Assembly: GCA_001462235.1 (NCBI GenBank)
Contig: LIUI01000154.1
Coordinates: 1 to 47,966, forward strand
Origin: Fibrobacteria bacterium GUT307
Lineage (GTDB): Bacteria; Fibrobacterota; Fibrobacteria; Fibrobacterales; Fibrobacteraceae
DNA length: 47,966 bases
Reading direction: 5' to 3'
This document shows, piece after piece, positions 9,094 to 46,305 of this stretch (within the stretch, counting starts at the first letter, position 1; every line of letters starts with the position of its first letter). Both the position numbers and the translations under genes were made by a program. The notes beneath the pieces are model-generated. The model did no database searches. It worked only from the letters and a program-made list of their open reading frames with translations, and had not been told where the DNA came from.

Positions 9094-10977
9094 TTGACAA
9101 CCAAGGCGATAGTAATTTTTATGGCTCTATCCTTAAACACGCAGGCAGCCGTTTGGCTCAGAGTAAATCAAGCCGGTTATACACCAGACCGCGTAAAAAC
9201 CGCAGTGGTTCTATCCGATACCGATATTGCAGGGCACACTTGGAAATTGAAAAACGGTGAAAAAGTTGTTTTGAATGGAAAGCTGGACGTGGCAAAGCGT
9301 GGCGATAATTATCATGTAGCTCAACCTTTTTACTACATAATTGATTTCAGTTCGGTAAAAACAAATGCAACATACACTTTGGAATTAGCCGGGGCACGCA
9401 CCGAGCAAATCCGCATTTTGGCAGACCCATATTCTAAGTTTGCCACACAAGCACTTATACATCTGCGTGCCATGCGTAGCAGGCATTCTGGGGATAGCGC
9501 GGCAGCGGTTTATGTAGTAAAAGGGGATTGGAAGGCCGGTGCTTGGCAAGAGGCTAGCCCGCGTAGAACCTTGGATATGCTTGGGGGGCATTATGATGCC
9601 GGGGATTATATAAAATTTACCTTGAACGAAGCATATCTGGCATGGCATTTATTGACCGCTTATCAAGAGAATCCGTCTTTGTTTGCAAATGTTCTTGAAG
9701 AGGCAAAATACAGTTTGGATTATCTTGCAAAAACTTTCCCGGAAGAAAATACCTTTGTTATACAAGTAGGCGATGCCAAAGACCATGAGCAAGGTTGGCG
9801 TTTACCGGAGCAAGATGCTCTGAATGGCAAAAGACCCGCTTTGTGTGCCTTATCACGCGTACACATGGGAAGCACAGCTGCTGCTTTGGCTTTAGGGGGG
9901 CAGGTATTTCAAAATTTGGATTCAGATGCCGCAACGCTTTACGCAAACAAGGCTAAGGCTATTTATGCACGAGCCAGAAAAAAAGATACACAACTCTCTG
10001 CATTTGAACGGGACAAAGTCAATGACTTTTATTTTGATAAAACCGATAACGATAATATGGCTTTGGCCGCCGCCGAGCTTTTTCGCTTAACGGGGCAGCA
10101 GAGTTATTTTGACGAAGGAAAAGCAGATGCACCGGAAGCGGGATATTGGGTTAGCTGGGGAGAATGGAATTCTTTTGCCAACCACCTTTTGGCAAAACTG
10201 GGCGATGCCGGTGCAAAAAATCGTATGCTTACCGAAGTGCTCCGCTATGAGCAGGACAATGTGTGGAATGCTCCAAACGATTATACATGGGGTACTTTGC
10301 ACCGTTGGATTGGCATGGCTAATGCCCATTTACGTGCCAGGCGTGATTTACAGGATGCTAAACAATTAACTGCGCCTTTTTTGGGAATTTTAGATTACGC
10401 CTTTGGACGCAATAACTGGGGCGTAGCAATGGTGGCATCTCCTGAGCTTCCTCATAGCGTTCGCAATATTTACAACGGAATTTATCGTTTAACCGGCACT
10501 TTTCCGGTTGGCGCATTATCCGAAGGCCCGGGCGATAAAGCTACTCACGATGACATGAAAAAATATTTTGAGGCTTTTCCAAAATTCTCTCCTCTTGAAG
10601 AATTTAACACCGCTGCCGCCGTATTCTACGATAGCTCCGATGATTTTATGATTCAGGAATCCACAATAGGCGGGCAGGGAGATTTTATATTGATGCTGGC
10701 ACTCGCATCTGCACGGGTATTGCCCGCATTGCCTGCAATGTCTCAAAGGGGGCCTGCCTCTCTTTTTATAAACCGGAGCGAAAACCTGTTTACCATAACC
10801 CCTTCTCCAATATGCAAAGCAGACAGCCTATCCATAACCGACTATCAAGGCAAGCAAATTACCGTCCTTTATCGCAATGAGCAAAATCAGTATATTTGGA
10901 ATACACGCCATATTCCCCCTGGTGTATATAATATTATCCCGTCTGATGGCAGCCTGCCTTTGGTGCTTAGGAAGTAA
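9094..10977 (+). CDS. Glycoside hydrolase family 9 (endoglucanase/cellulase)
   Basis: 627 residues. A signal peptide (to about residue 18, after NTQA) is followed by an N-terminal Ig-like cellulase domain (about 20-110, VNQAGYTPDR) and the (alpha/alpha)6 GH9 domain. The base motif GGHYDAGDYIKF holds Asp168 and Asp171, and the catalytic acid candidate is the Glu in DDFMIQES near residue 520. It hydrolyses beta-1,4-glucan with inversion outside the cytoplasm. The last 70 residues (SITDYQGKQITVL, WNTRHIPPGVYNI) resemble a type IX secretion/FlgD-like C-terminal sorting domain. The TTG start has GGAG about 8 nt upstream, and a later in-frame ATG at 9121 would shorten the signal peptide. Confidence 0.92.
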   Translation: MTTKAIVIFMALSLNTQAAVWLRVNQAGYTPDRVKTAVVLSDTDIAGHTWKLKNGEKVVLNGKLDVAKRGDNYHVAQPFYYIIDFSSVKTNATYTLELAGARTEQIRILADPYSKFATQALIHLRAMRSRHSGDSAAAVYVVKGDWKAGAWQEASPRRTLDMLGGHYDAGDYIKFTLNEAYLAWHLLTAYQENPSLFANVLEEAKYSLDYLAKTFPEENTFVIQVGDAKDHEQGWRLPEQDALNGKRPALCALSRVHMGSTAAALALGGQVFQNLDSDAATLYANKAKAIYARARKKDTQLSAFERDKVNDFYFDKTDNDNMALAAAELFRLTGQQSYFDEGKADAPEAGYWVSWGEWNSFANHLLAKLGDAGAKNRMLTEVLRYEQDNVWNAPNDYTWGTLHRWIGMANAHLRARRDLQDAKQLTAPFLGILDYAFGRNNWGVAMVASPELPHSVRNIYNGIYRLTGTFPVGALSEGPGDKATHDDMKKYFEAFPKFSPLEEFNTAAAVFYDSSDDFMIQESTIGGQGDFILMLALASARVLPALPAMSQRGPASLFINRSENLFTITPSPICKADSLSITDYQGKQITVLYRNEQNQYIWNTRHIPPGVYNIIPSDGSLPLVLRK

Positions 10978-27943: not shown

Positions 27944-30332
27944 TTAGCTTTTTCCTTAAAACAATAGTTACCAAAAGCAATACCAAGCCTGCCAGTCCAA
28001 TCCATAGCGAAATTCTAACGCTATCCGATATATACCGCAGTTCCACAACGGATTTTCCCTGCGGAACGTCAACTGCCATGAATGTGCTGAACGCTCTGCT
28101 AATGTTTGTGGTTTCTCCGTTTACTATTGCTTTCCAATATTTATGGTAATTTTCCGAAACGAATAATTTTCCGGCGGCAGAACTTTCCACTTCAAAAATG
28201 ATGTTATCTGGTTTTGCTGCGGTGGTTTTAACATTTGCCGCGTCGGGTTGTTGTAAGGGCGTTGTGGATTGTTGTAAGGGCGTTGCAGGCAACGCCCCTA
28301 CAACAACGGGGATTTCCAACAATAAAATGTTTTTGTAATCAAAATTATTGTCTTTTAATTTTTTAATTATTTCTTCGCCGGAATTTTCATTTTCCCAACT
28401 GTAATAAACTTTTGCCCTGCCTAAATCGCCCGGATTTTTTTCTACTCCAATGCCACGTTCGCTATCGTATATTATGTAACCTACATTCATTAGGTCCAGC
28501 ATTGCCTGGTTTTGCAATTGCTCTTTGAAAATACGGTAAGTTGCTATTTCGTTATCGTGAAAACCAAGAGCATTCCTTAGGCCGTAAGATGCCAAGTTAT
28601 TCCCGCTCATTGCTGGATTCCTGGTCAAAGCAAAAATACGCGGACGCTCATTGTCATTTGGGCTGTCTTGTTTAATTGCCTGAACTGCTTGGGGATTGTA
28701 ATAAGCCGCTCTTGGAACCGTTTGAATATAGGGAAAATTTACCACCGCTAAATCTATAGCGGCAATCGCTATTAAAATCAGGGTGTTTTGGGTAGTAAGG
28801 GCGTTGCCTGCAACGCCCCTACCCAAAACAAAAAACGCCGCACCCAAAACAACAGCACATATAATAAAAGATTTAATAGAAAAAGAAGCCAATTCGCCGG
28901 CTTTGACAAAATTCACAGGTTTAAAATAATCTCCGCCAACAGAATTAAAAAAGAAACTCGCTAAAATCACAAAGGGGACAGACCAGAGAACTATATGCAA
29001 AATTGATTTTATATTTTGAACTTTTATAAAATATGCACCGAATAGTAGTATGAATATTGCTGTGGGAGCGCCGTTTAAGCTTTCCCATGCGTGACGGAAA
29101 ATTAAAATGGCGGTTAGTAGTATGCCGTATAAAATTGCACCTTGTTTGATAATTTTTTTGTTCTCTTCAAAATTTTTAAGAACTGGGGCTGCCAAAAATA
29201 AAAAGGCAAGGGGAAGCCAGAAAATAGCCATGCTAGGTGCACGGAAATTTTTAACGCCCGGAATAAAATTAAACCATGCACTGAATAAAAACGAATGCAA
29301 ACCAACAGCATAAGAGAGAGCTATAACACAACCGAAAAACCAAAATAACGCTTGCTTTCTGTTACTCGGTAACAAACAACCGCAAAGAGCTAAGAATGTT
29401 AAAAGGGTACCTGCGCCATCTGCATTTAACTTAAAGGAATTTTGCCCCCAATAACTATTTTCTGTTCCTTGCCCTTTGCCAACATCCGTTCCCAAAAAAC
29501 CCGGCAAAATTATGGCGGCAAGTTCTTCTCCATGCAAACTCCAGCTTGCGGAATGCTCAATGGTTGTTTTTTCTGCGCTTCCCCTAATAGATTCCGTTGT
29601 TGTATATAAATATGGTGGGAGTATTTGAAAAGCGGAAATCGCAAGGCCAATAGCCAAAGCCAAGGTAGCAAGCCCTAAACGAATGCTGCGAACTTTTGCA
29701 GAAAGCGGGTTTGAAAAGAGTTCAAATAAAGTATAAAGCCCGGCACCCCATAAAAAGAAATAGGTTAATTGCAAATGCGGGGAAAGCACCATCCAAACAA
29801 CAGAAAGCGAAAAATAAATTCCATGCTTTATAGAGCCTTCGCGGAGCAACCTCATCAAAGCATACATCGCAAAAGGAGCCGCTGCAAAAACCATCATTTT
29901 GCCATCGTGCCCGCCGTAGATATACGTGAAATATTGAGGACTGCACGCATATAAAAAGCCGAGCAAAGCCGCCCATTGCCACTTGTCTGTTAAATACCTT
30001 GCCAAAATATAGGCAGCAATAAATGCACACCAAATTGTCAATATAAACTTAAAGCCAGTTGCCCTATCCGGGTCTAAAATAAAATAGATTAAGGCAAGCG
30101 GATGATAAACATCTGCAAATAAAGCATCCATAGTTGGAATGCCGCCAAGCCTGGAAGCATCCCATTCTGGCAAAATAAAATTACTCGCCCTTACATAGCG
30201 GGCACCTATGCTGTTAAGCTGGTCGCTATTCAGCATAAGTTTTGAGCTATCAAAAACAAATTCGCTGAATACAAGCAAAAGCAACGCAAGGAAGGCAAGC
30301 GCCGCAATGGCTAAAACACCATTTTTAGTCAA
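27924..30332 (-). CDS. YfhO-family polytopic membrane protein
   Basis: 802 residues. A GT-C-like membrane part with about twelve helices fills residues 1-530 and a beta-rich extracytoplasmic part the rest, ending in one more helix and a basic tail. ADVYHPLALIYFILDP, YGGHDGKM and a C-terminal FVSENYHKYWKAIVNGE are typical of YfhO-like proteins, which are implicated in lipid-linked sugar transfer to polymers. The TTG start has GAGGATT upstream, and the gene follows a small membrane ORF by 6 nt. Two palindromic repeats lie inside the coding sequence. Confidence 0.85.
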   Translation of the reverse strand: MTKNGVLAIAALAFLALLLLVFSEFVFDSSKLMLNSDQLNSIGARYVRASNFILPEWDASRLGGIPTMDALFADVYHPLALIYFILDPDRATGFKFILTIWCAFIAAYILARYLTDKWQWAALLGFLYACSPQYFTYIYGGHDGKMMVFAAAPFAMYALMRLLREGSIKHGIYFSLSVVWMVLSPHLQLTYFFLWGAGLYTLFELFSNPLSAKVRSIRLGLATLALAIGLAISAFQILPPYLYTTTESIRGSAEKTTIEHSASWSLHGEELAAIILPGFLGTDVGKGQGTENSYWGQNSFKLNADGAGTLLTFLALCGCLLPSNRKQALFWFFGCVIALSYAVGLHSFLFSAWFNFIPGVKNFRAPSMAIFWLPLAFLFLAAPVLKNFEENKKIIKQGAILYGILLTAILIFRHAWESLNGAPTAIFILLFGAYFIKVQNIKSILHIVLWSVPFVILASFFFNSVGGDYFKPVNFVKAGELASFSIKSFIICAVVLGAAFFVLGRGVAGNALTTQNTLILIAIAAIDLAVVNFPYIQTVPRAAYYNPQAVQAIKQDSPNDNERPRIFALTRNPAMSGNNLASYGLRNALGFHDNEIATYRIFKEQLQNQAMLDLMNVGYIIYDSERGIGVEKNPGDLGRAKVYYSWENENSGEEIIKKLKDNNFDYKNILLLEIPVVVGALPATPLQQSTTPLQQPDAANVKTTAAKPDNIIFEVESSAAGKLFVSENYHKYWKAIVNGETTNISRAFSTFMAVDVPQGKSVVELRYISDSVRISLWIGLAGLVLLLVTIVLRKKLNEKSIF
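28248..28304. repeat. REP-like palindrome inside YfhO, with a partial direct copy
   Basis: A 34-nt hairpin (28271-28304) has two 16-nt arms with one mismatch and a 2-nt loop; the core is GGGCGTTGC/GCAACGCCC. A partial copy of its left arm lies directly upstream (28248-28264 repeated at 28269-28285). The insertion keeps the YfhO frame and encodes a Pro/Thr/Gln-rich stretch. Confidence 0.7.
28785..28829. repeat. Second REP-like palindrome inside YfhO
   Basis: A 45-nt imperfect hairpin with the same GGGCGTTGC / GCAACGCCC core as the copy at 28271-28304, flanked by GTTTTGGGTA and its complement. It also stays in frame and lies in a loop between predicted membrane helices. Confidence 0.65.
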
Positions 30333-35060: not shown

Positions 35061-37871
35061 TTATGGCGGCCAACAATCATGTATTTTCAAACCACCACCA
35101 GAAATAATTATCTCAGTACCTGCGGTAAATATGATTTCTTCACAATTATACCCCGGAGAACTACCACAGCTGCCTCCTACTCCTGCGATTGAACAAGTAT
35201 TACTGTTGTTTAAACAAGCTCCTTTGCACGTAATGGTGTTATTTACTATATAAGTTCCATTTTCAAAACTTCCTGCAGTAATAGTAATGCTACCGCCGCT
35301 GGAAGAACTGGCTCCACCCACGCTTGAGGAACTGCTGGCACTGGAAGAACCACCGCCGCTGGAAGAAGATGCCGCTGCAGAAGAACTGCTTGAACCGCTG
35401 GCAGACGAAACTACAGAAGGGGTTATGTTTATGTAGAATGAATTGCTGCAGAGACCGCTTGCACTAGTGCAATTATTGGGATTACTCAAATCCACAGTGC
35501 ACCTTGACGCTCCTATCGCAGTGAGAGCCGTTACACAGCTTGTGAGTTGATTTTTTATTACACTTTCACTAGCTCTGCTACCTTTATATGCTCCGTTAAG
35601 ATAAAGCACATTGAACCGCTTGTAGAGTTCGTCCACAGGGCTTATCCCAACTCCGTTTATTTCGTCTATGCTCATATAAACAATCCTTGGCATTATCAGT
35701 ATTGCCGGTTCGGCGGGTACATCATTGCCTCGGTCTTCTTCGTTTGCGTATTGGCTTTGTAGCTTTACTTTTAAGTGCGGAATGGCTGGGACGTAAGATG
35801 GGTCGCTTGTTGAAGTGCTTGAAATGGGGTCAACAGGCTCATTACTGCTGCTACTGCCGCCACTGCTACTGCTATTGCTGCATCCACCGCTTCCATCGTC
35901 AAGGCCGGTTCCTGCACACTTGTCCACGTTGTCTTTTATTATTCCAGCATTGCTCAAGGCATCGAAAAGTGCTTCGTTGGCTTCAATTCTAGGATCTTGC
36001 ATGGTCTCAACTATTGCTCCATCTTTCATAAAAAGATTACCGCTCAAGTGAAGTTCACCAACTATTTTTGTTATATTTCCTGCACTGTATATAAAATAAT
36101 TTCTATAGCAATCCGTTGATAGCAACGGAGGAGTACTACTGGAATTAGGGCAACCGTCACTGGGTTTCTTACTTTCAATTGTCTCTGCGCCTTGCATCAA
36201 GTATAAAAGAACATTGGCAGATTGTGCTGTTCTCGGTAAGGCAATTACACTGTTGCCAGGTCTATTGACTACGATAATTATAAAATTGCCATCGAGAACA
36301 TAATTCTCAAATTGGTTGTAAAACTGATCCCAATCTATTCTAAGCACAACCCAATCACTATTCCAGTTAGCGGCACAGCTATTTAGCTTTGGTACAAATT
36401 CATTCGCTTTATTTTGCGCTTTGCTAACTTTAACAACATCCTTGAAAGTAACGCCATTTACAATAACTTCATCCACTGCATACGTTGCAAGCGCAGGGCA
36501 AATATCAGCTTGCAACCATTGACCTTCAAATCCCAAAACAATTGGATCTGGAATTTTGTAAGGAGGGCTTGTTGTTATCTGGTTACCCAAATAGCTTAGA
36601 AGGCTTGCCTCTTTCAAGCCGTTACTTGCAGGTGTGCCAGCTGGTATTGTATTTCCACAAGTGCTGCCGTTACTGCAATCAGAAACATTGAATTCTCTCC
36701 CGTTTAGAAGGCATTTATTGCTGTTATTTGGATCTGGGTAACCTAAAGTGCGCATGTAAAGAATAGGAGTAGTGGCAGAAGTATTGGAGCAGAAATTTAA
36801 GTTGCTAGCATTCGTTCCAGACACGGAAGCATTAATCCAAACTTTTCCACCGATATATCCTCCATTTAAGTTGTTAATTATAAAAGAAGTATTATTTGGC
36901 ATCACAAAGTCACCTTTAATAGTAACACTACTTTCAACTCTAAAATCACCTTTGACGGTTACGTTGCCATGGACCACAAGTTTATTGGTTGAGGATAAAT
37001 CCCCTTCTACATATAGATCACCCCATATTACTATCTCACTAATCGTCTCGAAATTGCCACCTACATAAACACTCCCACAAAATCCTCTGGTTTGCGAGTT
37101 AAAATTTCCTTTCACATAAAAATTGCCGTATTTTGTAGGATCGTTTAGAACCTCGGCTTCATAAGTTGATGGACGCGGATCGCTTATAGGTTTGTATCTG
37201 GTAGAACCGCCGGGAATTATTTCTGGGCAGCCAATTCCATTATTTGCATCTGATATCATTGTTGCATTCCCTGTGACTATAACATCGCCTTTGCTGCTAA
37301 ATCCTGACGTTGCATTTAAATCTCCAATAACATTGGCACTTTCCCAGAGTCCCTGAGTTGAACCGCCTACACCGCCATGGAATGGCGGCACTCTCTGTGC
37401 CATTCCACTAGGCGAAGTTGGCATTTCTACTTTGTACAAACCCTCAACACTAAAAATACCCACCTGGCTATGCTTTGAATTATCCCGCGCCGTGCCAATG
37501 CTCAGAAACTTTAGCTTGTATGGCTGATTTGGATTTTTTGTATCCACTCCAGTAAGAAAAACCTCAAACTGCTGCTGCTTGCTGCTGCCTGTGAAACTCA
37601 TCAGCACACTTGTCAAATCAACAGGTTTTTTTTGTTCTTCAAAAACCCTTATCATTGCACCCGCATCTGCACCCTTATTGGTAAGCCAGCCCTGCACCGC
37701 TTCCAAACCTGCTTGGGACGCCTGATATGCCTCGCTTGCTTTAAGCCTTGAGCCGCTTGAAAAATTCTCTTGCGCAACCCACTTGAAAACTACTATGCTA
37801 GCCGTGGTTGCCGCAAGCATGAACATCAAAACTGCGATTAGCGATACGCCTGACTTAAAATCATTTTTCAT
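35061..37871 (-). CDS. Giant PilX/GspK-like minor pilin with polyserine linkers (left operon)
   Basis: 936 residues. The N-terminus KSG|VSLIAVLMFMLAATTASIV looks like a class III leader and pilin helix without Glu5, as in PilX/GspK. Residues about 150-700 are beta-rich and include repeated VxGNxxVxGD-type strands (about 200-320) like the bactofilin or polymer-forming fold. Polyserine/glycine linkers lie near 695 and at 815-860. The last ~75 residues form a separate Cys-rich domain (CKGACLN to IHDCWPP) that the right paralogue lacks. ATG 37871 has AAGGAG 5 nt upstream; GTG 37886 is less likely. Probably a pilus-tip adhesin, by inference. Confidence 0.8.
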   Translation of the reverse strand: MKNDFKSGVSLIAVLMFMLAATTASIVVFKWVAQENFSSGSRLKASEAYQASQAGLEAVQGWLTNKGADAGAMIRVFEEQKKPVDLTSVLMSFTGSSKQQQFEVFLTGVDTKNPNQPYKLKFLSIGTARDNSKHSQVGIFSVEGLYKVEMPTSPSGMAQRVPPFHGGVGGSTQGLWESANVIGDLNATSGFSSKGDVIVTGNATMISDANNGIGCPEIIPGGSTRYKPISDPRPSTYEAEVLNDPTKYGNFYVKGNFNSQTRGFCGSVYVGGNFETISEIVIWGDLYVEGDLSSTNKLVVHGNVTVKGDFRVESSVTIKGDFVMPNNTSFIINNLNGGYIGGKVWINASVSGTNASNLNFCSNTSATTPILYMRTLGYPDPNNSNKCLLNGREFNVSDCSNGSTCGNTIPAGTPASNGLKEASLLSYLGNQITTSPPYKIPDPIVLGFEGQWLQADICPALATYAVDEVIVNGVTFKDVVKVSKAQNKANEFVPKLNSCAANWNSDWVVLRIDWDQFYNQFENYVLDGNFIIIVVNRPGNSVIALPRTAQSANVLLYLMQGAETIESKKPSDGCPNSSSTPPLLSTDCYRNYFIYSAGNITKIVGELHLSGNLFMKDGAIVETMQDPRIEANEALFDALSNAGIIKDNVDKCAGTGLDDGSGGCSNSSSSGGSSSSNEPVDPISSTSTSDPSYVPAIPHLKVKLQSQYANEEDRGNDVPAEPAILIMPRIVYMSIDEINGVGISPVDELYKRFNVLYLNGAYKGSRASESVIKNQLTSCVTALTAIGASRCTVDLSNPNNCTSASGLCSNSFYINITPSVVSSASGSSSSSAAASSSSGGGSSSASSSSSVGGASSSSGGSITITAGSFENGTYIVNNTITCKGACLNNSNTCSIAGVGGSCGSSPGYNCEEIIFTAGTEIIISGGGLKIHDCWPP

Positions 37872-37882
37872 ACAGTCTCCTT

Positions 37883-38377
37883 TCACCTGATTATAGCCGA
37901 TACATCTATCGACTGGTCAGAATCTTTAAATTTCCATTTAATTGTGACATCAACCTGCTTTGATAATTTATGCTCAACAGTAATTACATCTCCACTACTA
38001 GCGGAGGACTGAGCTCTAATAAAATCCGTTGAATCGTTCACAACTTGAAGCGGGTCTGTTGTTGCAGGTTTTACATTAACCACTGCCGAATACTGCACCT
38101 TAACTTTACTATCATTATAAGTGCGTTCCCTGCATAAATCATGCAATGCACCATATCCAGGGCATTCTCTTTTGTTTTCCATCACGCTCGCAGACCCAAT
38201 AGCGGAGATTGAATCTATTATCTCTTGCGCAACCACATTAGCCCCATCACGTGCCCTTACCCTGAGTATGCTCTCCCTATTTCCCTTTTGCATGATGTTA
38301 AGCCCTACAATCAAAAGACCCAAAACAAGAGCCGCCACAAGCACTTCCATTAGACCAAAACCACGTTTGCGATTCAT
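37883..38377 (-). CDS. PilV-like minor pilin (left operon)
   Basis: 164 residues. The leader MNRKRG|FGLMEVLVAALVLGLLIVGLN has the prepilin cleavage site and Glu5. The body resembles PilV/GspI minor pilins (REAVLRVRARD-like helix end, then a small beta-sheet). ATG 38377 lies inside the ATGA overlap with the fimT-like gene and has GGGAGG upstream. The N-terminal half is close to the right-operon copy at 41925. Confidence 0.85.
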   Translation of the reverse strand: MNRKRGFGLMEVLVAALVLGLLIVGLNIMQKGNRESILRVRARDGANVVAQEIIDSISAIGSASVMENKRECPGYGALHDLCRERTYNDSKVKVQYSAVVNVKPATTDPLQVVNDSTDFIRAQSSASSGDVITVEHKLSKQVDVTIKWKFKDSDQSIDVSAIIR

Positions 38378-38868
38378 AATTCCTCCCAAGCGTCGGAGTT
38401 TTTTTTCTTTATGTATGCTGTGAATGTATTTTTTTGGGGTATTTTTACTGCGCTACCGCAATAGTTGGCTGTATTGCATACAACAAAACAACCGGGACCG
38501 TTTATGCCAGAGATACCTATTTTAACTTGTGATGTGATGCCACTGTTGTAAAAATTTTCTTCACATTTACCAGGAGCATCATCTGTGTTAGCTAAAAAAC
38601 CATCTGCTAAAGACTGGCTGAACTCGTGGCTTGTGGCTGGTTCGGCTTTTATAGTATTTCCGGTTACTGTTATTTCCACGGCTTCTTTACGTGTTTTGCC
38701 TTCTGCTACTGCTCGCTCCGCAAAAGAAACCATAGTTCTTGCTGCCTCTTTTGCCTTGTTCGTTTGGATTAGGTCGTTCAGGTTGGACCAGCCAAGGGCA
38801 GCCAGGATGCCTATTATAATTATCACCACAAGCACTTCTAATAGAGTGAAACCTTTTTTACTGCTCAT
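38374..38868 (-). CDS. FimT/GspH-like minor pilin (left operon)
   Basis: 164 residues. MSSKKG|FTLLEVLVVIIIIGILAALGW is a canonical type IV prepilin N-terminus with Glu5. The middle has NLNDLIQTNKAKEAARTM, a GspH-type helix, then a Cys-containing beta-domain that ends NSDAWEEL. ATG 38868 follows GGAGG by 8 nt. It starts just before the pilW-like stop and overlaps pilV by 4 nt. Confidence 0.87.
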   Translation of the reverse strand: MSSKKGFTLLEVLVVIIIIGILAALGWSNLNDLIQTNKAKEAARTMVSFAERAVAEGKTRKEAVEITVTGNTIKAEPATSHEFSQSLADGFLANTDDAPGKCEENFYNSGITSQVKIGISGINGPGCFVVCNTANYCGSAVKIPQKNTFTAYIKKKNSDAWEEL

Positions 38869-38869
38869 A

Positions 38870-40303
38870 TCAGGAGCCTCCAGCCAAAACACCATTGTTG
38901 GGAACAGGAATTACCGTGACTGCTTCACTTTTTTCGCCTTTTTTGTCTATCTCTAGAGTTAGCTCAAATGCCTTTACAGAAGCCTTGTCTGCATCTGTAG
39001 GATTGTAATCCAGTTCGCTTTGGTCAAAGTGGTAAACTTTGTCTGTTTTTCTGGACACTCTGAAATTCCTAATATCAAGATGCCCCCCGGCTGCAGGGCT
39101 GTAAAATGCAGCGGTTATGCCAATACAAGCAGGGGTGGTGCTCGGAACGCTGAACTCAAAATGCCTTGCAAGGCTGTCTGCACTTTTATCTTGCGGTGGG
39201 TAAAACAGAAAATCCGGAATACCGGCTATGGGCTTTTTGCTGTCCGGGTCTCGCAAGCCTACGGATAAATGGTCGCGGCCTGGCTGGAACATTGCCATTT
39301 TGTTATACCTGGCACTGTGGGTGAGGGGGGTACTGGGAGTGCAACTGCTAGCGGTTCTGCATGGGTCGCTAGCATTCACTTGATGGAGCAATTTAAAATC
39401 TATGGCGTATTCTTCGCCGGCATTGAAAGTAAAAGGACGGCAGACCGTTCCGCTTGGCTCAGCGAGGTAAAAATCTGAGCGTATATCACCGCTGGAAGAG
39501 GAATTTTGCGTGAAACCCTTAAGAGTAAATACATCACCCACAAGGTCAAATGAACTATTCTCAGGAATCAAACCAAAGGAACTACCGGATGAAGCCGGAA
39601 ACGGCAAATCACCTGATGCTGATGAATTACCTGCTGCACCGGGTTTTGACGGAAGGAATTGAAACGTCGCAACATTGCGAGCCATTTCTACCTCTTCGGG
39701 ACATTGCTGTTCTTCATCAAAGATACCACCTGTGCATTTGGAACCTTGAATAGTAATAGTAGTGCATTTGCGTATAAGCACACTGTCCGGTAATTTTACA
39801 GACCACTCTATTTCCATCACAGCCCCGCAAATTCCATTTGCATCAAAGTAAGCTTTTCTAAAAACAAGTTTATCAAAGTTGCCACTGCGCACCAATTCGT
39901 ATGAACTGAAATCTCCGCCGGTGGCAGCAGGGTTAATGTAAACTTCTTCTGCCACTACAAAGTCGCTACCGCTTGTGCTGGATTTCCCCCAACTCTTTGC
40001 ACCCATCTGCGAAATATCCTCTTTTAAGAGTGCAGAAACGCGCCCCGCTTCTTCTGCGCTGTTAAGCATATTCTGGCTACGGAGGCGCATGGATGTGGAA
40101 TCTGAGAAAACACGCCCCGCAACCACTATTATAAACCCCATTATTGCTATGTAAACTAAAAGTTCTATGAGAGTAAAGCCTCCGGTGCAAGCTCTTTTAT
40201 TTGCCAAAAAATTATCTAAATTCCGCTCCAAGCAATTCGCTTGAACTGCCTGCGCGGCAGTCTTCCGAGCTGAATTAGGAGTTTTGTTAATGGCAAATAT
40301 CAT
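38870..40303 (-). CDS. PilW-like minor pilin with long switchable leader (left operon, first gene)
   Basis: 477 residues. The leader is unusually long, about 41 residues, before the cleavage site GG|FTLIELLVYIAIMGFIIVV. Residues 15-20 (TAAQAV) are encoded by the inverted 18-bp site at 40244-40261. The body is PilW-like (RVFSDSTSMRLRSQNM, then a Cys-containing beta-domain) and ends in a jelly-roll-like region. ATG 40303 is chosen because GGAGG lies 12 nt upstream; ATG 40381 sits only 13 nt below the -10 element and has no Shine-Dalgarno. This gene leads the operon pilW-fimT-pilV-pilX and is transcribed from the promoter at 40394-40422. Confidence 0.8.
   Translation of the reverse strand: MIFAINKTPNSARKTAAQAVQANCLERNLDNFLANKRACTGGFTLIELLVYIAIMGFIIVVAGRVFSDSTSMRLRSQNMLNSAEEAGRVSALLKEDISQMGAKSWGKSSTSGSDFVVAEEVYINPAATGGDFSSYELVRSGNFDKLVFRKAYFDANGICGAVMEIEWSVKLPDSVLIRKCTTITIQGSKCTGGIFDEEQQCPEEVEMARNVATFQFLPSKPGAAGNSSASGDLPFPASSGSSFGLIPENSSFDLVGDVFTLKGFTQNSSSSGDIRSDFYLAEPSGTVCRPFTFNAGEEYAIDFKLLHQVNASDPCRTASSCTPSTPLTHSARYNKMAMFQPGRDHLSVGLRDPDSKKPIAGIPDFLFYPPQDKSADSLARHFEFSVPSTTPACIGITAAFYSPAAGGHLDIRNFRVSRKTDKVYHFDQSELDYNPTDADKASVKAFELTLEIDKKGEKSEAVTVIPVPNNGVLAGGS
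40244..40261 (-). repeat. Left inverted recombination-site candidate
   Basis: On the minus strand ACTGCCGCGCAGGCAGTT, identical to 41410-41427 on the plus strand. Arms ACTGCC/GGCAGT surround an asymmetric centre GCGCA, so the sites have direction and are inverted to each other. The first base begins codon 15 (Thr) of the PilW-like gene. Confidence 0.75.
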
Positions 40304-40338
40304 AAAAGCTGTATGCCTCCGGGTATGTGAACAACGGC

Positions 40339-40358
40339 TAGCTGTTGCCAAACAGCTA
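40339..40358 (-). promoter_or_regulatory. Leader hairpin of the left pilin operon
   Basis: An 8-bp perfect stem (TAGCTGTT/AACAGCTA) with a 4-nt loop lies in the 5' leader, upstream of the GGAGG and ATG 40303. No T-run follows, so it is not a terminator; it may protect or regulate the mRNA. Confidence 0.45.
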
Positions 40359-40393
40359 ACTTCGTGCACGGGAACGTCCATTAGGATAAATAT

Positions 40394-40422
40394 ATATTAT
40401 TTTACGGCAAAAAAGCAATCAA
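40394..40422 (-). promoter_or_regulatory. Sigma70-like promoter of the left pilin operon
   Basis: On the minus strand TTGATT (40422-40417), 17 bp, TAATAT (40399-40394). It lies inside the segment between the two 18-bp sites. Its -35 abuts the recombinase ribosome binding site on the other strand, and a plus-strand TATATT (40393-40398) overlaps its -10, so the two directions probably compete. Confidence 0.65.
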
Positions 40423-40434
40423 GGGGGAGGTTTT

Positions 40435-41406
40435 TTGGAAAAAAAATTAATTTTAGGTGATTTTCTCGTTAAAATTTCTGATTTGGGCAATAACAGAAAA
40501 TTATGGAGTGACATTTTTGAAGATTACCTTGCAGATTTTCTTAAAACAGCTAAAGCGAAAGAAGACTGGAAGGTTCAGGTAGAAAGACAAATCGGCACCA
40601 TAAAAAATTGGTTCGCTGGGCAAGAAATAATCTATTATGACGATCTTACTAGGGAAAAAGCCAGATGCTATGCTAATTGGCGGGGCAAAAGATCTGCCTC
40701 TACTGTGAATAAAGAGCTTCTGAGAATCAGAGCTATTCTCAAATTTGCGGAGAGATTTCTCGGGCAATCGCCGAATTTTGCATTTGATGGGATAAATGTG
40801 AGCGAAACAACCGAAAATACGCGATTTGTTACGCCATTTTCCATCATGGAATGCAAAAGGATTTTGCAATGGCTCAAAAAATATCCCTATTACCATGATA
40901 TGATTTTGCTCATGCTTTTGACCGGCATGGAAAGCAAAGCTGTGTCTCTTATGACTAAGGAATGGTGGAATATTAAAGAGAAAGTTCTTTTTGTGTTTCC
41001 GCAAAAAATTTCCGGGGTTATAGATGCAAAAACCCAACACAGAGCTAGAAAACTACCTATTAGCAAAACTATGCTTGAAATTTATAATCGAGGGTTCATC
41101 TTTGGCAGCCAAACCCAAAAATTCAATGTCAAAAGCCAAAAATTGCTGATAAGATGTTCCGACCAAACGGGGGTAAAAAATGTCCATTGCCATAGATTCA
41201 GGCACACCTTTGCCAGCCAATCTCTGAGTGCCGGGCAAGATATTATCAGAGTATCAAAGATGCTTGGCCACAAGAACATAAATGTGACCTTGAAGCACTA
41301 TGCAGACTTTGTTTTTTCGGAAAGCGACACAGGTTTTGAAGGGATGTTCAGGGTGCATAAAAAATGGGTGAAATACCTAAATGAGGAGTATTTTTTAATA
41401 CAGTAA
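40435..41406 (+). CDS. Tyrosine recombinase (phage-integrase family), predicted inversion enzyme
   Basis: 323 residues from TTG, with AGGGGGAGG 4 nt upstream. The N-terminal SAM-like core-binding domain covers about 22-110, and the catalytic domain about 135-310. The box II residues are present (HRFR, His253 and Arg256; LGH, His279; HY, Tyr289), and Lys199 suits the beta-hairpin lysine. The box I position, normally TGxR, reads TGME with Glu166, so the first catalytic Arg is absent. The gene lies between inverted 18-bp sites that it may recombine, and the fimT-like frame continues directly after its TAA. Confidence 0.88.
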   Translation: MEKKLILGDFLVKISDLGNNRKLWSDIFEDYLADFLKTAKAKEDWKVQVERQIGTIKNWFAGQEIIYYDDLTREKARCYANWRGKRSASTVNKELLRIRAILKFAERFLGQSPNFAFDGINVSETTENTRFVTPFSIMECKRILQWLKKYPYYHDMILLMLLTGMESKAVSLMTKEWWNIKEKVLFVFPQKISGVIDAKTQHRARKLPISKTMLEIYNRGFIFGSQTQKFNVKSQKLLIRCSDQTGVKNVHCHRFRHTFASQSLSAGQDIIRVSKMLGHKNINVTLKHYADFVFSESDTGFEGMFRVHKKWVKYLNEEYFLIQ

Positions 41407-41928
41407 CTAACTGCCGCGCAGGCAGTTAGTCATTCCTTTTCTGTACGTGGGGGTAATTGTGGGTTTAGTTTGATAGAAATTCTTGTTGTAATCATCATAA
41501 TAGGAATTCTATCTGCCCTGGCTTATAGCAGCCTCATAGACCTAATTTCCACAAATCGCGCAAAAGAAAGCGCCCAAACAATGAGAGCATTCGCCGAACG
41601 CGCCCTTGCCGAAGGCAAAAGGCAGGGTAAAGAAGTCAAAATTGAGTTGGATGGCAACAATATAATCTATTCAATAGGGAATGACACGAAAAGCGAACCT
41701 TTGAGCGATAGCTTTTCCAGCTCAAGTACTGGCGGCCCCGTTGCCGGAGATTTCAATTCAGGAGTAACAGCGGAATCTAGTCTAGGGCTTTCTGGTATAG
41801 TAAGCGAAGGTTCTTTTGTTGCTTGCGGAGCAAGAAATTACTGCGCAGCGGCGGTAAAAACCAAAGAGAAAAACTTCTTCGTGGCTTATATAAAGCGAGG
41901 AAACTCAGCAGACTGGGAGGAATTATGA
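41407..41928 (+). CDS. FimT/GspH-like minor pilin without start codon (right operon, OFF state)
   Basis: The frame is open from the recombinase TAA to 41928. It encodes TAAQAV, a short spacer, then NCG|FSLIEILVVIIIIGILSALAYSS, a canonical prepilin site with Glu5. The body parallels the left copy (ISTNRAKESAQTM, FVACGARNYCAAAVKT, ADWEEL). No ATG, GTG or TTG precedes the cleavage site in frame; the first candidate is TTG 41470, which lies inside the pilin helix and would remove the cleavage motif. I infer the start is supplied by inversion. The next gene overlaps by ATGA. Confidence 0.75.
   Translation, partial: LTAAQAVSHSFSVRGGNCGFSLIEILVVIIIIGILSALAYSSLIDLISTNRAKESAQTMRAFAERALAEGKRQGKEVKIELDGNNIIYSIGNDTKSEPLSDSFSSSSTGGPVAGDFNSGVTAESSLGLSGIVSEGSFVACGARNYCAAAVKTKEKNFFVAYIKRGNSADWEEL
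41410..41427 (+). repeat. Right inverted recombination-site candidate
   Basis: Exact 18-bp copy of the left site in opposite orientation, 3 nt after the recombinase stop. Here the dyad is longer: ten-base arms at 41406-41415 and 41421-41430 around GCGCA. It is in frame with the fimT-like gene (codons ACT GCC GCG CAG GCA GTT). As a hairpin it may also attenuate transcription leaving the recombinase gene. Confidence 0.75.
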
Positions 41929-42374
41929 GATTACCCCACACCCCAAGTCTGAAGTCTGGCTTTGGCCTTCTTGAAGTTCTTGTTGCCACTGTTGTGCTCG
42001 GCTTTTTGATTGTTGGCTTAAACAGGTTGCAGCTAGGCAACCGCGAGGCTGTTCTAAGAATTCGTGCAAGAGACGCCGCCCAAATTGTAGCACAGGATTT
42101 TATAGACAGTCTAAGCCGCATTGGCATATCTTCTATACCTTCTGAAGGAGATACTATCATAGGAACAAGGAATTACGAATGGGAAAACAAAAACGGAACA
42201 ACCAGTAAAATTGAATACACCATAGGGGGAAATGTAATTGCTCAAGACAGTTCACTTGAAACTAGCAATTTTGCAAATACAACGCATATTACTGCGAAAA
42301 AAGTTGATTTAAAGATCAGTTGGCTATTTAAAAATTCCGAACAAAGCATAAGCGTATCGAGGATATTAAAATGA
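41925..42374 (+). CDS. PilV-like minor pilin (right operon)
   Basis: 149 residues. LKSG|FGLLEVLVATVVLGFLIVGLN gives the cleavage site and Glu5. The helix continues LGNREAVLRIRARDAAQIVAQD, nearly as in the left copy, while the beta-domain differs. ATG 41925 overlaps the upstream stop and has GGGAGG 6 nt before it. Confidence 0.85.
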   Translation: MRLPHTPSLKSGFGLLEVLVATVVLGFLIVGLNRLQLGNREAVLRIRARDAAQIVAQDFIDSLSRIGISSIPSEGDTIIGTRNYEWENKNGTTSKIEYTIGGNVIAQDSSLETSNFANTTHITAKKVDLKISWLFKNSEQSISVSRILK

Positions 42375-43756
42375 AAAAGGCTTTTACTTTGATAGAACTT
42401 CTTGTTTTTATGCTTATCTTGGGCTTTATAATTGTAGTTGCAGGGCGTGTATTTTCAGATTCTACAGGGATGAGGGTACGCACCCAAAACATGACAAAGG
42501 CAACAGAAGAGGTAAATAAAATTGCCGAGCTTATCAAAGAAGATATGAGCCAAATGGGTGTAAAAGCATGGGGGATATCAGGTTCAAGCAGCACAACTTT
42601 TGACACAGTTGCAAATGTGCATATCCTTTTCAATAACCCAAATCCTGATTATAGTTCCTATAAATTAACACGCAACAACCCCGGCAACTTTGACCACTTG
42701 CTTTTTCGCAAAGCGTATTACGATGATAACGGGGTTTGCGGGGCTGTGATGGAAATAGAATGGTTTGTAAAAAAAGTAAACAATATCGATGTACTTATTC
42801 GTAAATGCACTCCTCTTGAAAATCCCAAATGCACAGGTACCTTTGATGAAGAGCAATGTAAAGAGGTAGAGGTAGAAATGGCTACCAATGTACAAACTTT
42901 TGTCCTATTGCCAAGTTTACCCAACGATGATCCCCTTGCCTTTGGCGGTGTGCCGGCTACTCCAGGCACTCCAACATTTGGTCTTTTAAACCGAGGTGAT
43001 AATATTACTACTTGTACAGATATTTGCGAAACAGTCATAACTCCAAACACAAATACATTAAGCAACTTTGTAAGAAACGCTAGTACCTCCGAAAAGAAAA
43101 AACACCAAGTTTTTGTTGCACAACCAGGCGTAACGGGAGACTATACAAAGTGCGAAGCATTTGAATTCAAAAAAGGCGAAACTTATGCGGTGACATTCAA
43201 AACGCCAAAAATCCAAAGTGTTGCCGATAGCATGGCTCTTTTTCAACCGGGAGTGGATCACATGGCGGTTGGTTTAAGAGATTCCGATAATGGTTATGCC
43301 CAAATAGGAACGGATTTTATGTTTTACCCGCCACAAGAAAACGGTGCGAATGACATAAATCAATATTTTGAGTTTTCTGTTCCTAATGATGTAGAAAAGG
43401 CGTGTATTGCCTTTACCTTTGCTTTTTACAGCGGCACTGAAGACATAGGTCCGCACAAAGGTTCGCTAAAAATTCAAGATTTTGAATTGTCCCATAAAAA
43501 AGACGAAGCATATACTTTTGCTGACATCTACGATCCTACCGCTGATAATTATGATCCTGTTTACGCAACCGAATCGGATGGAGCAAATAAACTGAAAAAC
43601 AAGAAGAATGTAAAAGCGTTTAGATTAATTTTAGAAGTCAACAAAAGAGGGGAAGTTGCCAGTACGCGGAATATTAACCAAGGCGGTTATATTATCCCAA
43701 CACCAAACAATGGCGTTACAGCAAAATCAACTCCGTCACCAATTCCACCACCATAA
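42371..43756 (+). CDS. PilW-like minor pilin (right operon)
   Basis: 461 residues. A normal short leader MKKA|FTLIELLVFMLILGFIIVV contrasts with the long one of the left PilW. RVFSDSTGMRVRTQNM, FRKAYYDDNGVCGAVMEIEW and the C-terminal region (FQPGVDHMAVGLRDSD, FYPPQENG) align with the left copy. It is third in this operon but first in the left one. Its ATG overlaps the pilV stop by 4 nt. Confidence 0.87.
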   Translation: MKKAFTLIELLVFMLILGFIIVVAGRVFSDSTGMRVRTQNMTKATEEVNKIAELIKEDMSQMGVKAWGISGSSSTTFDTVANVHILFNNPNPDYSSYKLTRNNPGNFDHLLFRKAYYDDNGVCGAVMEIEWFVKKVNNIDVLIRKCTPLENPKCTGTFDEEQCKEVEVEMATNVQTFVLLPSLPNDDPLAFGGVPATPGTPTFGLLNRGDNITTCTDICETVITPNTNTLSNFVRNASTSEKKKHQVFVAQPGVTGDYTKCEAFEFKKGETYAVTFKTPKIQSVADSMALFQPGVDHMAVGLRDSDNGYAQIGTDFMFYPPQENGANDINQYFEFSVPNDVEKACIAFTFAFYSGTEDIGPHKGSLKIQDFELSHKKDEAYTFADIYDPTADNYDPVYATESDGANKLKNKKNVKAFRLILEVNKRGEVASTRNINQGGYIIPTPNNGVTAKSTPSPIPPP

Positions 43757-43773
43757 ATTTAATGGGAGGATTT

Positions 43774-46305
43774 ATGAAACGAGGTATTTCTTTAATAGCA
43801 GTTTTGATGTTTATGCTTGCAGCGACTACATCGAGCGTTGTGCTTTACAAGTGGCTTAGTTCCGAGAATTTCGCAAGCGGTGCCCGTTTAAAACATAGCG
43901 AGGCTTATCAGGCAAGCGAGTCTGGCTTAGACGCTGTGCGTGCCTGGCTTTCTTACAATGCAGCAGATGTTGGCGGTGTTTTGAAAGAGCATTTTGATAA
44001 TGCACAAGCTCCTTACCACTTAAACAACCAGGCAAACAATGTGATTAGCAAAGCACTTGGCAGCTTAGACAACAACCAGAATTTCAATGTTTATTTGATA
44101 GGAGCAGATATTAGCAATCGCCATAAATTATTAAAATTTATGAGCATTGGAACAGGACGAGATGGTTCAAAAGTTAAACAGACAGCTATTTTCAACGTGG
44201 AAGGCTTATACAATGTTAAAATTCAATCTCCAAAAGGAAGTACCGATTTTAACGACGATTTCTGGGGAAACATGGGAACTGTAAACATTATAGAATCAAT
44301 GAACGTTGTTATGACACAAACTGCAGAGATTAAAAATGCAGGCGGGCAGGGTTTAAATGAAATTAAAATAGGAAAAGATATCGACAATCCTGGTTATTTG
44401 ATACTGGATGGAAATTATTATGTAAATCACGGCATGAATATTTATGGTGATATGTACGTAACGGGTGATTTTGATTTTTGCTCAACAGGTAGCCTTGATA
44501 ATGATTACATAAATGGCTACTTGTACATAGGGGGTATATTTCATCCAAAGGGGGCTTTGACTATTCAAAAAGATGCTTTTTTTAAAGGCGGGGTGAATCC
44601 AAATGCAGCTATAACCGTCACAGGCAACAGTTGTTCAGGGACGGCAAGTGCAGGAACTATAAAAGTTGAAGAAAACAGCACAATTCAAGGAGACTTTTTC
44701 TATTGGAATCACAGCGACGGTAGCCAATTGGGTTTCCATGTGGGCGGTAATTTGGTTATGGATAATGGTAATATTATTTTGACAAGACAAGATAACAATT
44801 CTGATTCACTCGCTGCCATGGGTAATGTTTATATTGCAAATAACCTTACAGGTACAATTCCCGCTGATAATAACGCATCGGTTACCAGAAAAGCCATTCC
44901 TTATTTTGGGCAAAATCCTTCAAGCATTGTTTGCGTACCAAACATGACTTCAGAAAATTCCCCAGACGCACCACCATATTATTACCGCGATAATACCAGC
45001 AATACTATTAAAATGCGTTCCGACCGCTCCAACGTAGCAAGTATCAGTACCTCCTGTGCTGATTACACAAACTGGGGTGCAGATCCGCTGGACGGCTCTA
45101 AAAATAACGCCAAAGACCTGAAAGGAAAACTTGAAGAAGCTGGCGGACTTGGCGATAGAAGTTGCGAAAATACTCCTATAAAATTTGATATGACTATTTA
45201 CGAAGCAGCCAAGCAGGATAACCCACCGACTTGGGTTCACAGAAAAGATAAATGGGGAGCTTGCAAAAAAACTACTGATCCAAATCCATGTACTGGGTCG
45301 GAATGCAAGTTAAAATTGGCAGATCCAAATGCTTGGATAAATTTAGGAGCGGAACTTCAGGATTGCAGGGATAGAACGACTACACTTAGCTCACTTTACA
45401 ATGATGAATGGCTGGTTATTTATATGAAAGACAGAGTTTCATTTAATGATAATCCATCGTCTTTGTCATCGGGTAAATATATTATCATATTGGATATGGA
45501 GACTATAACTGCATACGACCCGAATCATATTTTGAAGCTTCCACCGACGGCTCAAAATGTGCAAGTTATGCTTTATTTGCCAAAAGGTTATCCTTCTAAA
45601 ATAGAACTTTCAGGCACTGGTCAATACTACAATTACTTCATTTTCAGCGATGGTAACATATATCAATTCGACACCACAAACGAAAGAAAGCTTACTGGCA
45701 ATGTTTTTATGAATAACTGCAGCGTTATGAATTCCCCAACAGCACAAGGCAATCCGCATTTTATATCCGAAGGCAATAGAAGTTTAATTGAAGAATTGAT
45801 GGCAAACGAAATTTTACAAAAAAATGAAGCTCCATCTTCCTCATCTTCATGTGAAGGCGAAAACTGCCCATCTTCCTCTTCAACTCAAACAGCTAACTCC
45901 CAACAAGACCCCTACCTAATCCCCCTAAGCCCCCGCCTAAAAGTAGAACTAGAAAGCAAATATATCAGCAAAGAACCGGAACCATCAGAGGATGTAGAAA
46001 CTGTGAAGGGCTCTATTCTAGTAATGCCACGCATTATTCGCTTAACGCAGGAAGTTTATACTGAAGCTACTACTACTTCAGATGCTGATAAGAAGCTTAG
46101 TAAATACTACAATCTCCTCTACTTGAACGGAGCCACAAAACAACCAGGAACAGAAGGAAACCCGCCGCCAGAGCCAACGCCAACATGCACTCCTTCTGGC
46201 ACCGGAGTTTATAAATGCACATTTGGCGAGGGGTCAGGAATAAGCGAATTCTACGTAAAAATAGGAGCCGCCCCAGCAACTCCTTCATCATCCTCTTCGC
46301 CATAA
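43774..46305 (+). CDS. Giant PilX/GspK-like minor pilin (right operon)
   Basis: 843 residues. MKRG|ISLIAVLMFMLAATTSSVVLYKW matches the left paralogue. The central beta-rich region has the same plan (VxGNLVMDNGN-like strands, WLVIYMKD, LPPTAQNVQVMLYLPKG, YYNYFIFSDGNIYQ), and the near-C-terminal RLKVELESKY, ILVMPRI and YNLLYLNGA segments are conserved. It ends SSSSSP where the left protein continues with a linker and Cys-rich module. ATG 43774 follows GGGAGGA closely. Probably a pilus-tip protein, by inference. Confidence 0.8.
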   Translation: MKRGISLIAVLMFMLAATTSSVVLYKWLSSENFASGARLKHSEAYQASESGLDAVRAWLSYNAADVGGVLKEHFDNAQAPYHLNNQANNVISKALGSLDNNQNFNVYLIGADISNRHKLLKFMSIGTGRDGSKVKQTAIFNVEGLYNVKIQSPKGSTDFNDDFWGNMGTVNIIESMNVVMTQTAEIKNAGGQGLNEIKIGKDIDNPGYLILDGNYYVNHGMNIYGDMYVTGDFDFCSTGSLDNDYINGYLYIGGIFHPKGALTIQKDAFFKGGVNPNAAITVTGNSCSGTASAGTIKVEENSTIQGDFFYWNHSDGSQLGFHVGGNLVMDNGNIILTRQDNNSDSLAAMGNVYIANNLTGTIPADNNASVTRKAIPYFGQNPSSIVCVPNMTSENSPDAPPYYYRDNTSNTIKMRSDRSNVASISTSCADYTNWGADPLDGSKNNAKDLKGKLEEAGGLGDRSCENTPIKFDMTIYEAAKQDNPPTWVHRKDKWGACKKTTDPNPCTGSECKLKLADPNAWINLGAELQDCRDRTTTLSSLYNDEWLVIYMKDRVSFNDNPSSLSSGKYIIILDMETITAYDPNHILKLPPTAQNVQVMLYLPKGYPSKIELSGTGQYYNYFIFSDGNIYQFDTTNERKLTGNVFMNNCSVMNSPTAQGNPHFISEGNRSLIEELMANEILQKNEAPSSSSSCEGENCPSSSSTQTANSQQDPYLIPLSPRLKVELESKYISKEPEPSEDVETVKGSILVMPRIIRLTQEVYTEATTTSDADKKLSKYYNLLYLNGATKQPGTEGNPPPEPTPTCTPSGTGVYKCTFGEGSGISEFYVKIGAAPATPSSSSSP

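Follow-up and report, generated by a model that had tools for sequence, protein, structure and literature searches.

The window that we analyzed is a 47,966-nucleotide stretch of Fibrobacteria bacterium GUT307 (contig LIUI01000154.1), which is contig 154 of a 2.62-Mb genome in 157 contigs (G000). It contains a tyrosine recombinase gene between two divergent four-gene operons of minor pilins, and an exact 18-bp inverted pair (40244-40261 and 41410-41427) brackets the recombinase gene. We compared this candidate switch between pilus-tip operons with 11 other genomes of the genus (genome labels such as G005 and G015). Orthologues of the recombinase, 74-77% identical, were found in 7 of these 11 genomes, one of them JAITFP010000036.1 (Candidatus Fibrimonadaceae), and the wider order contained distant integrases only. 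The features of the window locus are listed below; comparisons refer to the eight genomes with the complete locus unless another scope is given. UTR denotes untranslated region.

40244-40261, minus strand: putative left crossover site ACTGCCGCGCAGGCAGTT, exact inverted partner of 41410-41427, encoding TAAQAV within the prepilin leader, in phase
40262-40303, minus strand: predicted mobile leader MIFAINKTPNSARK, with its ATG start at 40303, inside the putative invertible segment
40336-40360, minus strand: 5′ UTR stem-loop GTTAGCTGTTTGGCAACAGCTAGC; 5 other genomes have a stem-loop of different sequence at this position
40387-40412, minus strand: AT-rich promoter-like block between leader and recombinase gene, conserved in 8/8 genomes
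40435-41406, plus strand: tyrosine recombinase gene, 323 amino acids, TTG start, ribosome-binding site GGGGGAGG, PF00589 E=1.6e-12
41410-41427, plus strand: putative right crossover site, 3 bp past the recombinase stop, encoding TAAQAV; an orthologous site follows the stop in 8/8 genomes
38870-40303, minus strand: left (on) operon gene 1, GspJ/PilW-like prepilin (PF07963; weak gspJ match)
38374-38895, minus strand: left operon gene 2, GspH/FimU-like prepilin (PF07963; gspH 3.5e-8, below cut-off)
37883-38389, minus strand: left operon gene 3, PilV/GspI-like prepilin (PF07963; PilV 1e-4, below cut-off)
35061-37886, minus strand: left operon gene 4, large tip protein in the GspK/PilX position, without Glu5, with a beta-solenoid (structure model and Foldseek)
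41407-41928, plus strand: right (off) operon gene 1, GspH-like prepilin without a start codon, its frame open from the recombinase stop
41925-42374, plus strand: right operon gene 2, PilV/GspI-like prepilin
42371-43756, plus strand: right operon gene 3, GspJ/PilW-like prepilin (N_methyl just below the Pfam cut-off; alignment with 15 relatives)
43762-46305, plus strand: right operon gene 4, large tip protein sharing ~29% identity with its left counterpart

Because the H, I/PilV and J similarities were below curated cut-offs, these genes were named by position and resemblance.

A first-pass annotation of this DNA had described the 18-bp inverted pair around a recombinase gene and had read both copies as TAAQAV in frame with the adjacent prepilin. 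Our analysis bore this out. Both copies read ACT GCC GCG CAG GCA GTT in frame, and the recombinase matched the PF00589 catalytic domain with 48 bits against a curated cut-off of 27.1. A scan of the window genome that allowed up to 2 mismatches identified these two as the sole exact copies of the site. Twenty mononucleotide shuffles of the window gave inverted repeats of at most 16 bp within 2.5 kb. A chance repeat was ruled out by the genome scan, the shuffles and recurrence of the site in eight genomes. We also rejected a dispersed repeat family or a terminator only, as there are just two exact genome copies, although the right copy scores terminator-like. Inverted pairs longer than 18 bp are present elsewhere in the window, so that site length alone is not decisive; conservation is. 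Among other repeats, 31-nt inverted repeats GTAAGGGCGTTGCAGGCAACGCCCCTAC at 28274-28304 and 28792-28822 resemble a dispersed palindromic repeat family. The right site (41406-41430) is part of a longer, 10-bp stem with CATTCCTTTT after it, and may double as a terminator of the recombinase gene.

The two sides of the recombinase gene differ in what precedes the first prepilin. On the left side, on the minus strand, the ATG at 40303 is followed by the leader MIFAINKTPNSARK, the TAAQAV site and the prepilin. On the right side, the recombinase stop is followed by the same site and then by LTAAQAVSHSFSVRGGNC-GFSLIEIL, with no ATG, GTG, TTG, CTG or ATN codon between the recombinase stop of the window and the GFSLIE motif. 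A second in-frame ATG lies upstream of the left leader at 40381 in the window, and the relatives favor the 40303 start. The GGAGG of the left leader falls between the two sites, as does the ATG at 40303; the first-pass annotation was thus correct in placing both elements inside the segment and in finding the right prepilin without a start codon. Its further claim, that only the left operon has a promoter, held in part. An AT-rich block, TTTTGCC.TAAAATTATATATATTTA, was found at that place in 8/8 genomes, whereas a sigma-70 consensus scan detected no promoter at the place of the block, making the promoter call softer. In 6/8 genomes a stem-loop is situated 21-26 nt past the block; the sequences differ and the pairing is kept. 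No known RNA family was found in the 5′ UTR above the Rfam gathering score, and the stem-loop may have a regulatory role in the leader mRNA. In three genomes (L011, L041 and L044) a small extra open reading frame (~87 amino acids, MEV..LRTLVILVAM..) lies between the promoter and the leader, within the invertible segment. It has one likely membrane segment and no Pfam match.

The same arrangement recurred throughout. At all eight loci, the first side consisted of a TTG-started recombinase gene with a strong ribosome-binding site, a divergent AT-rich block, an ATG leader, the site and a prepilin, and the other side consisted of the recombinase stop, a site a few nucleotides on and a start-less prepilin. 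The off prepilin had no ATG, GTG or TTG before the site, right after the recombinase stop, in any of the eight genomes, which ruled out a sequencing error hiding a start codon. The site core read GCGCA in the window and GGCGC in G012 and G013, the remaining genomes having GCCCC. Within each genome the left and right cores were the same, an identity that strand exchange would need. In every case the block common to both sides included the sequence running onward from the initial G of GCC, which would place the exchange there. All 20 sites (eight loci, the third operons described below and G008) were read in one phase. Sixteen of these were tabulated by script and had 11 different codon distances between site and prepilin, all in the same phase; the other four, from G012 and G013, were missed by the script pattern and were read by eye (AGAAV, AGASV). 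We then simulated the inversion. As the first-pass annotation had predicted, the leader was placed in frame before the other prepilin, which became an open in-frame prepilin in 8/8 genomes, and the displaced prepilin was left without a start before the site in 8/8. Nonsynonymous divergence (dN) of the recombinase was ~0.15 and synonymous divergence (dS) was near or at saturation between most genome pairs, indicating that the gene and the in-frame layout are kept by selection. The HxxR motif, the second His and the Tyr nucleophile were intact in 8/8 orthologues (HCH[RK]FRHT, GHKN and LKHYAD). Paralogues (37-46% identity) had no such sites or prepilins within 400 bp upstream or 260 bp downstream. 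No relatives were found in viral contigs, and plasmids yielded distant integrases only.

Two gene orders were found among the operons, A (J-H-I-K) and B (H-I-J-K). In the window genome type A was on and type B off; G013 was likewise, and a short G006 contig fits the same state. In G015, type B was on, its tip and PilV-like genes matching the window right operon best, and type A, which matches the window left operon, was off. Both states were therefore caught, in different species, and the layout that the first-pass annotation drew from one stretch of DNA recurs in 8/8 genomes with the on state reversed between species. An operon adjoining the same flanking genes was on in G012 and off in G013. 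Between these two genomes the flanking genes were 80-94% identical and the recombinase dN was 0.04, and the pilin operon proteins were mostly ~40-50% identical; by these values, the cassettes are replaced or diversify very rapidly.

G015 contained a third operon 7.8 kb past the right site. Its start, TAG GGG ATA TCT GCC GCC CCA GCA GTT, is a third copy of the site directly after a stop codon, with no ATG, GTG or TTG. Contig C176 of G005 had the same start-less arrangement behind unrelated genes. These third operons carry the site without any integrase and, from their sequence, look like silent cassettes. The earlier description of the locus as a biphasic selector thus fits the two operons of the window and is too narrow for G015 and G005.

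In G008, two pilin operon contigs, C38 and C10, break off at one and the same base of the site, where each has GCCGCACAAGCAGTTA leading into a different prepilin; these copies of GCCGCACAAGCAGTTA are the sole exact ones in the G008 genome. The segment ends diverge at that same G in G006, G007 and G015 (CC-GCC versus CT-GCC). With reads from both orientations, assembly of an operon contig would be expected to halt at the point of divergence of the segment ends, and coexisting orientations would leave assembly scars like the G008 contig ends. A 16-bp repeat would not by itself interrupt an assembly. Shufflons are known to be among the hardest regions to assemble (PMC5430464). The missing G008 segment, at ~1.2-1.6 kb, would be small enough to escape binning, and its ends would be the site GCCGCACAAGCA. 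Contig C276 of G005, whose first base is ~16 bp beyond where the site core starts, was not used as evidence, since a strain variant or a repeat could account for it. A further G008 operon on C10 (L123, ~10700-10800, reverse complement) adjoins a TrmH-like gene, with a possible site remnant, TTGGCAGTTATACC, and the first prepilin absent. The third operon of G015 likewise follows a TrmH-like gene.

In our model, the two sites delimit a 1.15-kb mobile expression cassette that comprises a promoter, a 5′ UTR, a start codon, a leader peptide and the gene for the recombinase. This enzyme would invert the cassette through strand exchange in the shared site core, within GCCGCGCAGGCA, and such flipping would occur within a clone. 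In orientation 1 the leader would be fused in frame to the left prepilin, turning on the left four-gene minor-pilin operon. Conversely, fusion of the leader to the right prepilin in orientation 2 would turn on the right operon. The first prepilin of the displaced operon would be left without a promoter, a ribosome-binding site and a start codon. Inversion rather than deletion, as the first-pass annotation proposed, is predicted by the opposite orientation of the two sites more than by the asymmetric site centre on which it had relied. In this protein family, prepilin peptidase cleaves at the Gly-Phe point. Since the site is upstream of that point, the peptidase would remove the leader together with the site, and a crossover in the cleaved leader would leave the mature pilins without a scar. 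The roles of GspH/I/J/K-type minor pilins and prepilin leader cleavage have been described (PMC7248040). We consider it very probable that an invertible start cassette selects one of two minor-pilin operons. On balance, we also favor the broader proposal that at least two complete tip operons are served by a single cassette with its own recombinase, as a leader-exchange shufflon that is scarless in the mature protein.

Several observations weigh against this model. Each assembled switch has one orientation, and the window genome has no contig of the other orientation. The G008 bin lacks a recombinase contig. An ATG is present past the right site in G014 and G013, as is a TTG in G006, such that some off prepilins could start weakly. 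The sites share only 9-18 bp, and the left site of G013 has a mismatch. The AlphaFold model of the recombinase was too poor for use (predicted local distance difference test score, pLDDT, 42). Finally, all orthologues have Glu at the position of catalytic Arg I (TG[MI]E, not TGxR). This replacement is common to the aligned phage-like relatives in the order ([TS/A]GxE; L045-L054), which suggests a whole recombinase subfamily without Arg I. IntDOT is another enzyme that lacks Arg I.

The single orientation per assembly, the replaced Arg I and the degraded left site of G013 would also suit fixed divergent paralogous operons beside a resident integrase, in which the repeat and the start-less gene are relics of an old rearrangement and no flipping takes place today. 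We think this very improbable, as the start-less open in-frame prepilins are kept in 8/8 genomes despite near-saturated synonymous divergence, opposite states occur among species, the core is equal on both sides of each genome, and the G008 contigs end at the site. An exchange of operons via RecA-dependent recombination or gene conversion between paralogues, the recombinase being incidental, has three observations in its favor: starting at the site, a 259-bp stretch of the two G012 operons is 84% identical, the G007 operons are partly 97% identical at the protein level, and pilin operons turn over faster than flanking genes. However, side-to-side identity is only 9-18 bp in most genomes, too short for efficient homologous recombination, and the recombinase is always inside the segment and conserved, which makes this explanation highly improbable. 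Insertion of an integrase-bearing mobile element in the 5′ end of a prepilin gene, the repeats being attachment sites, would explain why an integrase gene adjoins the repeats and has phage-like relatives elsewhere in the genomes, but it is barely credible given that attachment repeats are direct and these are inverted, that the flanks are two complete divergent operons instead of halves of one gene, and that further start-less operons carry the site without an integrase.

Under the invertible cassette model, a flip would exchange the tip, as the left and right tip proteins are so dissimilar. The K-position protein has GISLIAV without Glu5 and no gspK match. The structure model of the left tip protein (mean pLDDT 59) contains a long N-terminal helix and a beta-solenoid (residues 240-320, pLDDT 80-89). 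The best Foldseek matches of this model were the C-terminal domain of a Caldicellulosiruptor tapirin (E=7e-4) and the Thermus competence pilin ComZ (E=6e-3), with low template modelling scores (TM-scores) that make them leads only. The tapirin structure entry is annotated as a possible adhesin, and tapirins bind cellulose. A sequence profile search of the tip proteins against the PDB gave no match. Type IV pili are reported to aid attachment of Fibrobacter to cellulose (PMC4704652). The predicted outcome of inversion is switching between alternative pilus-tip complexes, whose ends probably differ in adhesion to plant polymers. In G012, the left pilin operon also contains a gene for a 23S rRNA intervening-sequence/bAvd-like four-helix protein (L003 6433-6810).

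The first-pass annotation knew of no described system with this layout, a statement that was too strong in view of the Mycoplasma pulmonis vsa locus and Moraxella pilin inversion. In Salmonella, the recombinase gene and a promoter lie together inside the Hin invertible segment, as here; Hin is a serine recombinase, its crossover is upstream of the gene, and it controls one regulated operon plus a repressor. FimB/FimE at fimS and the Bacteroides invertible promoters share with our locus a tyrosine recombinase, short inverted repeats and control of surface structures. In those systems the sites are non-coding and the promoter alone flips, whereas here the sites are coding and the ATG and leader inside the segment would also flip. 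The crossover of Moraxella inversion lies within the pilin gene, and Piv does not belong to the tyrosine recombinases. It is the pilin genes that move in that system, relative to a fixed promoter, and the major pilin is switched, not a tip set. Type IV pilin choice by pilin-gene inversion is reported for tfpQ/tfpI of Moraxella bovis and Moraxella lacunata (Marrs 1988, cited in PMC11868660). In vsa, site-specific inversion by HvsR supplies silent genes with the promoter, the ribosome-binding site and the 5′ coding sequence that they lack, and the crossover is in coding sequence (PMC2268961). The likeness is one of mechanism, not homology: a promoter, a ribosome-binding site and a start are moved onto start-less genes, an event that we infer for our locus. 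However, vsa moves 714 nt of coding sequence, whereas here only a leader would be moved and then cleaved off, the recombinase rides in the moving segment, and whole four-gene tip operons would be selected. In the R64/IncI shufflon, the tyrosine recombinase Rci, beside short in-coding sites, chooses the type IV pilus tip adhesin pilV (PMC11852207, PMC5430464). Several silent cassettes per recombinase are a further likeness, given the third operons of G015 and G005, with two operons in the window. In contrast to Rci, which swaps C-termini after a constant N-terminus, the sites here are in the 5′ leader, the stretch from promoter to leader would be swapped, and the whole mature tip set would change. 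The combination of operon-wide tip selection, crossover in a discarded leader and a recombinase in the cassette was not found in our searches of open-licence papers. By this comparison the principle is known from vsa, Moraxella and R64, and the combination is new as a variant.

If the model is correct, any number of different tip complexes could be swapped in scarlessly, because crossover in a discarded leader avoids the usual constraint that in-gene recombination places on the protein. The short-site recombinase and the scarless swap also offer a design. The locus would be a phase-variation system of Fibrobacterota, a group in which our searches of open-licence papers turned up no reported one. 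A wood-fibre-degrading bacterium would choose its whole pilus tip by flipping DNA, and it becomes testable whether populations of fibre degraders in termite guts are mixtures that differ in their adhesins.

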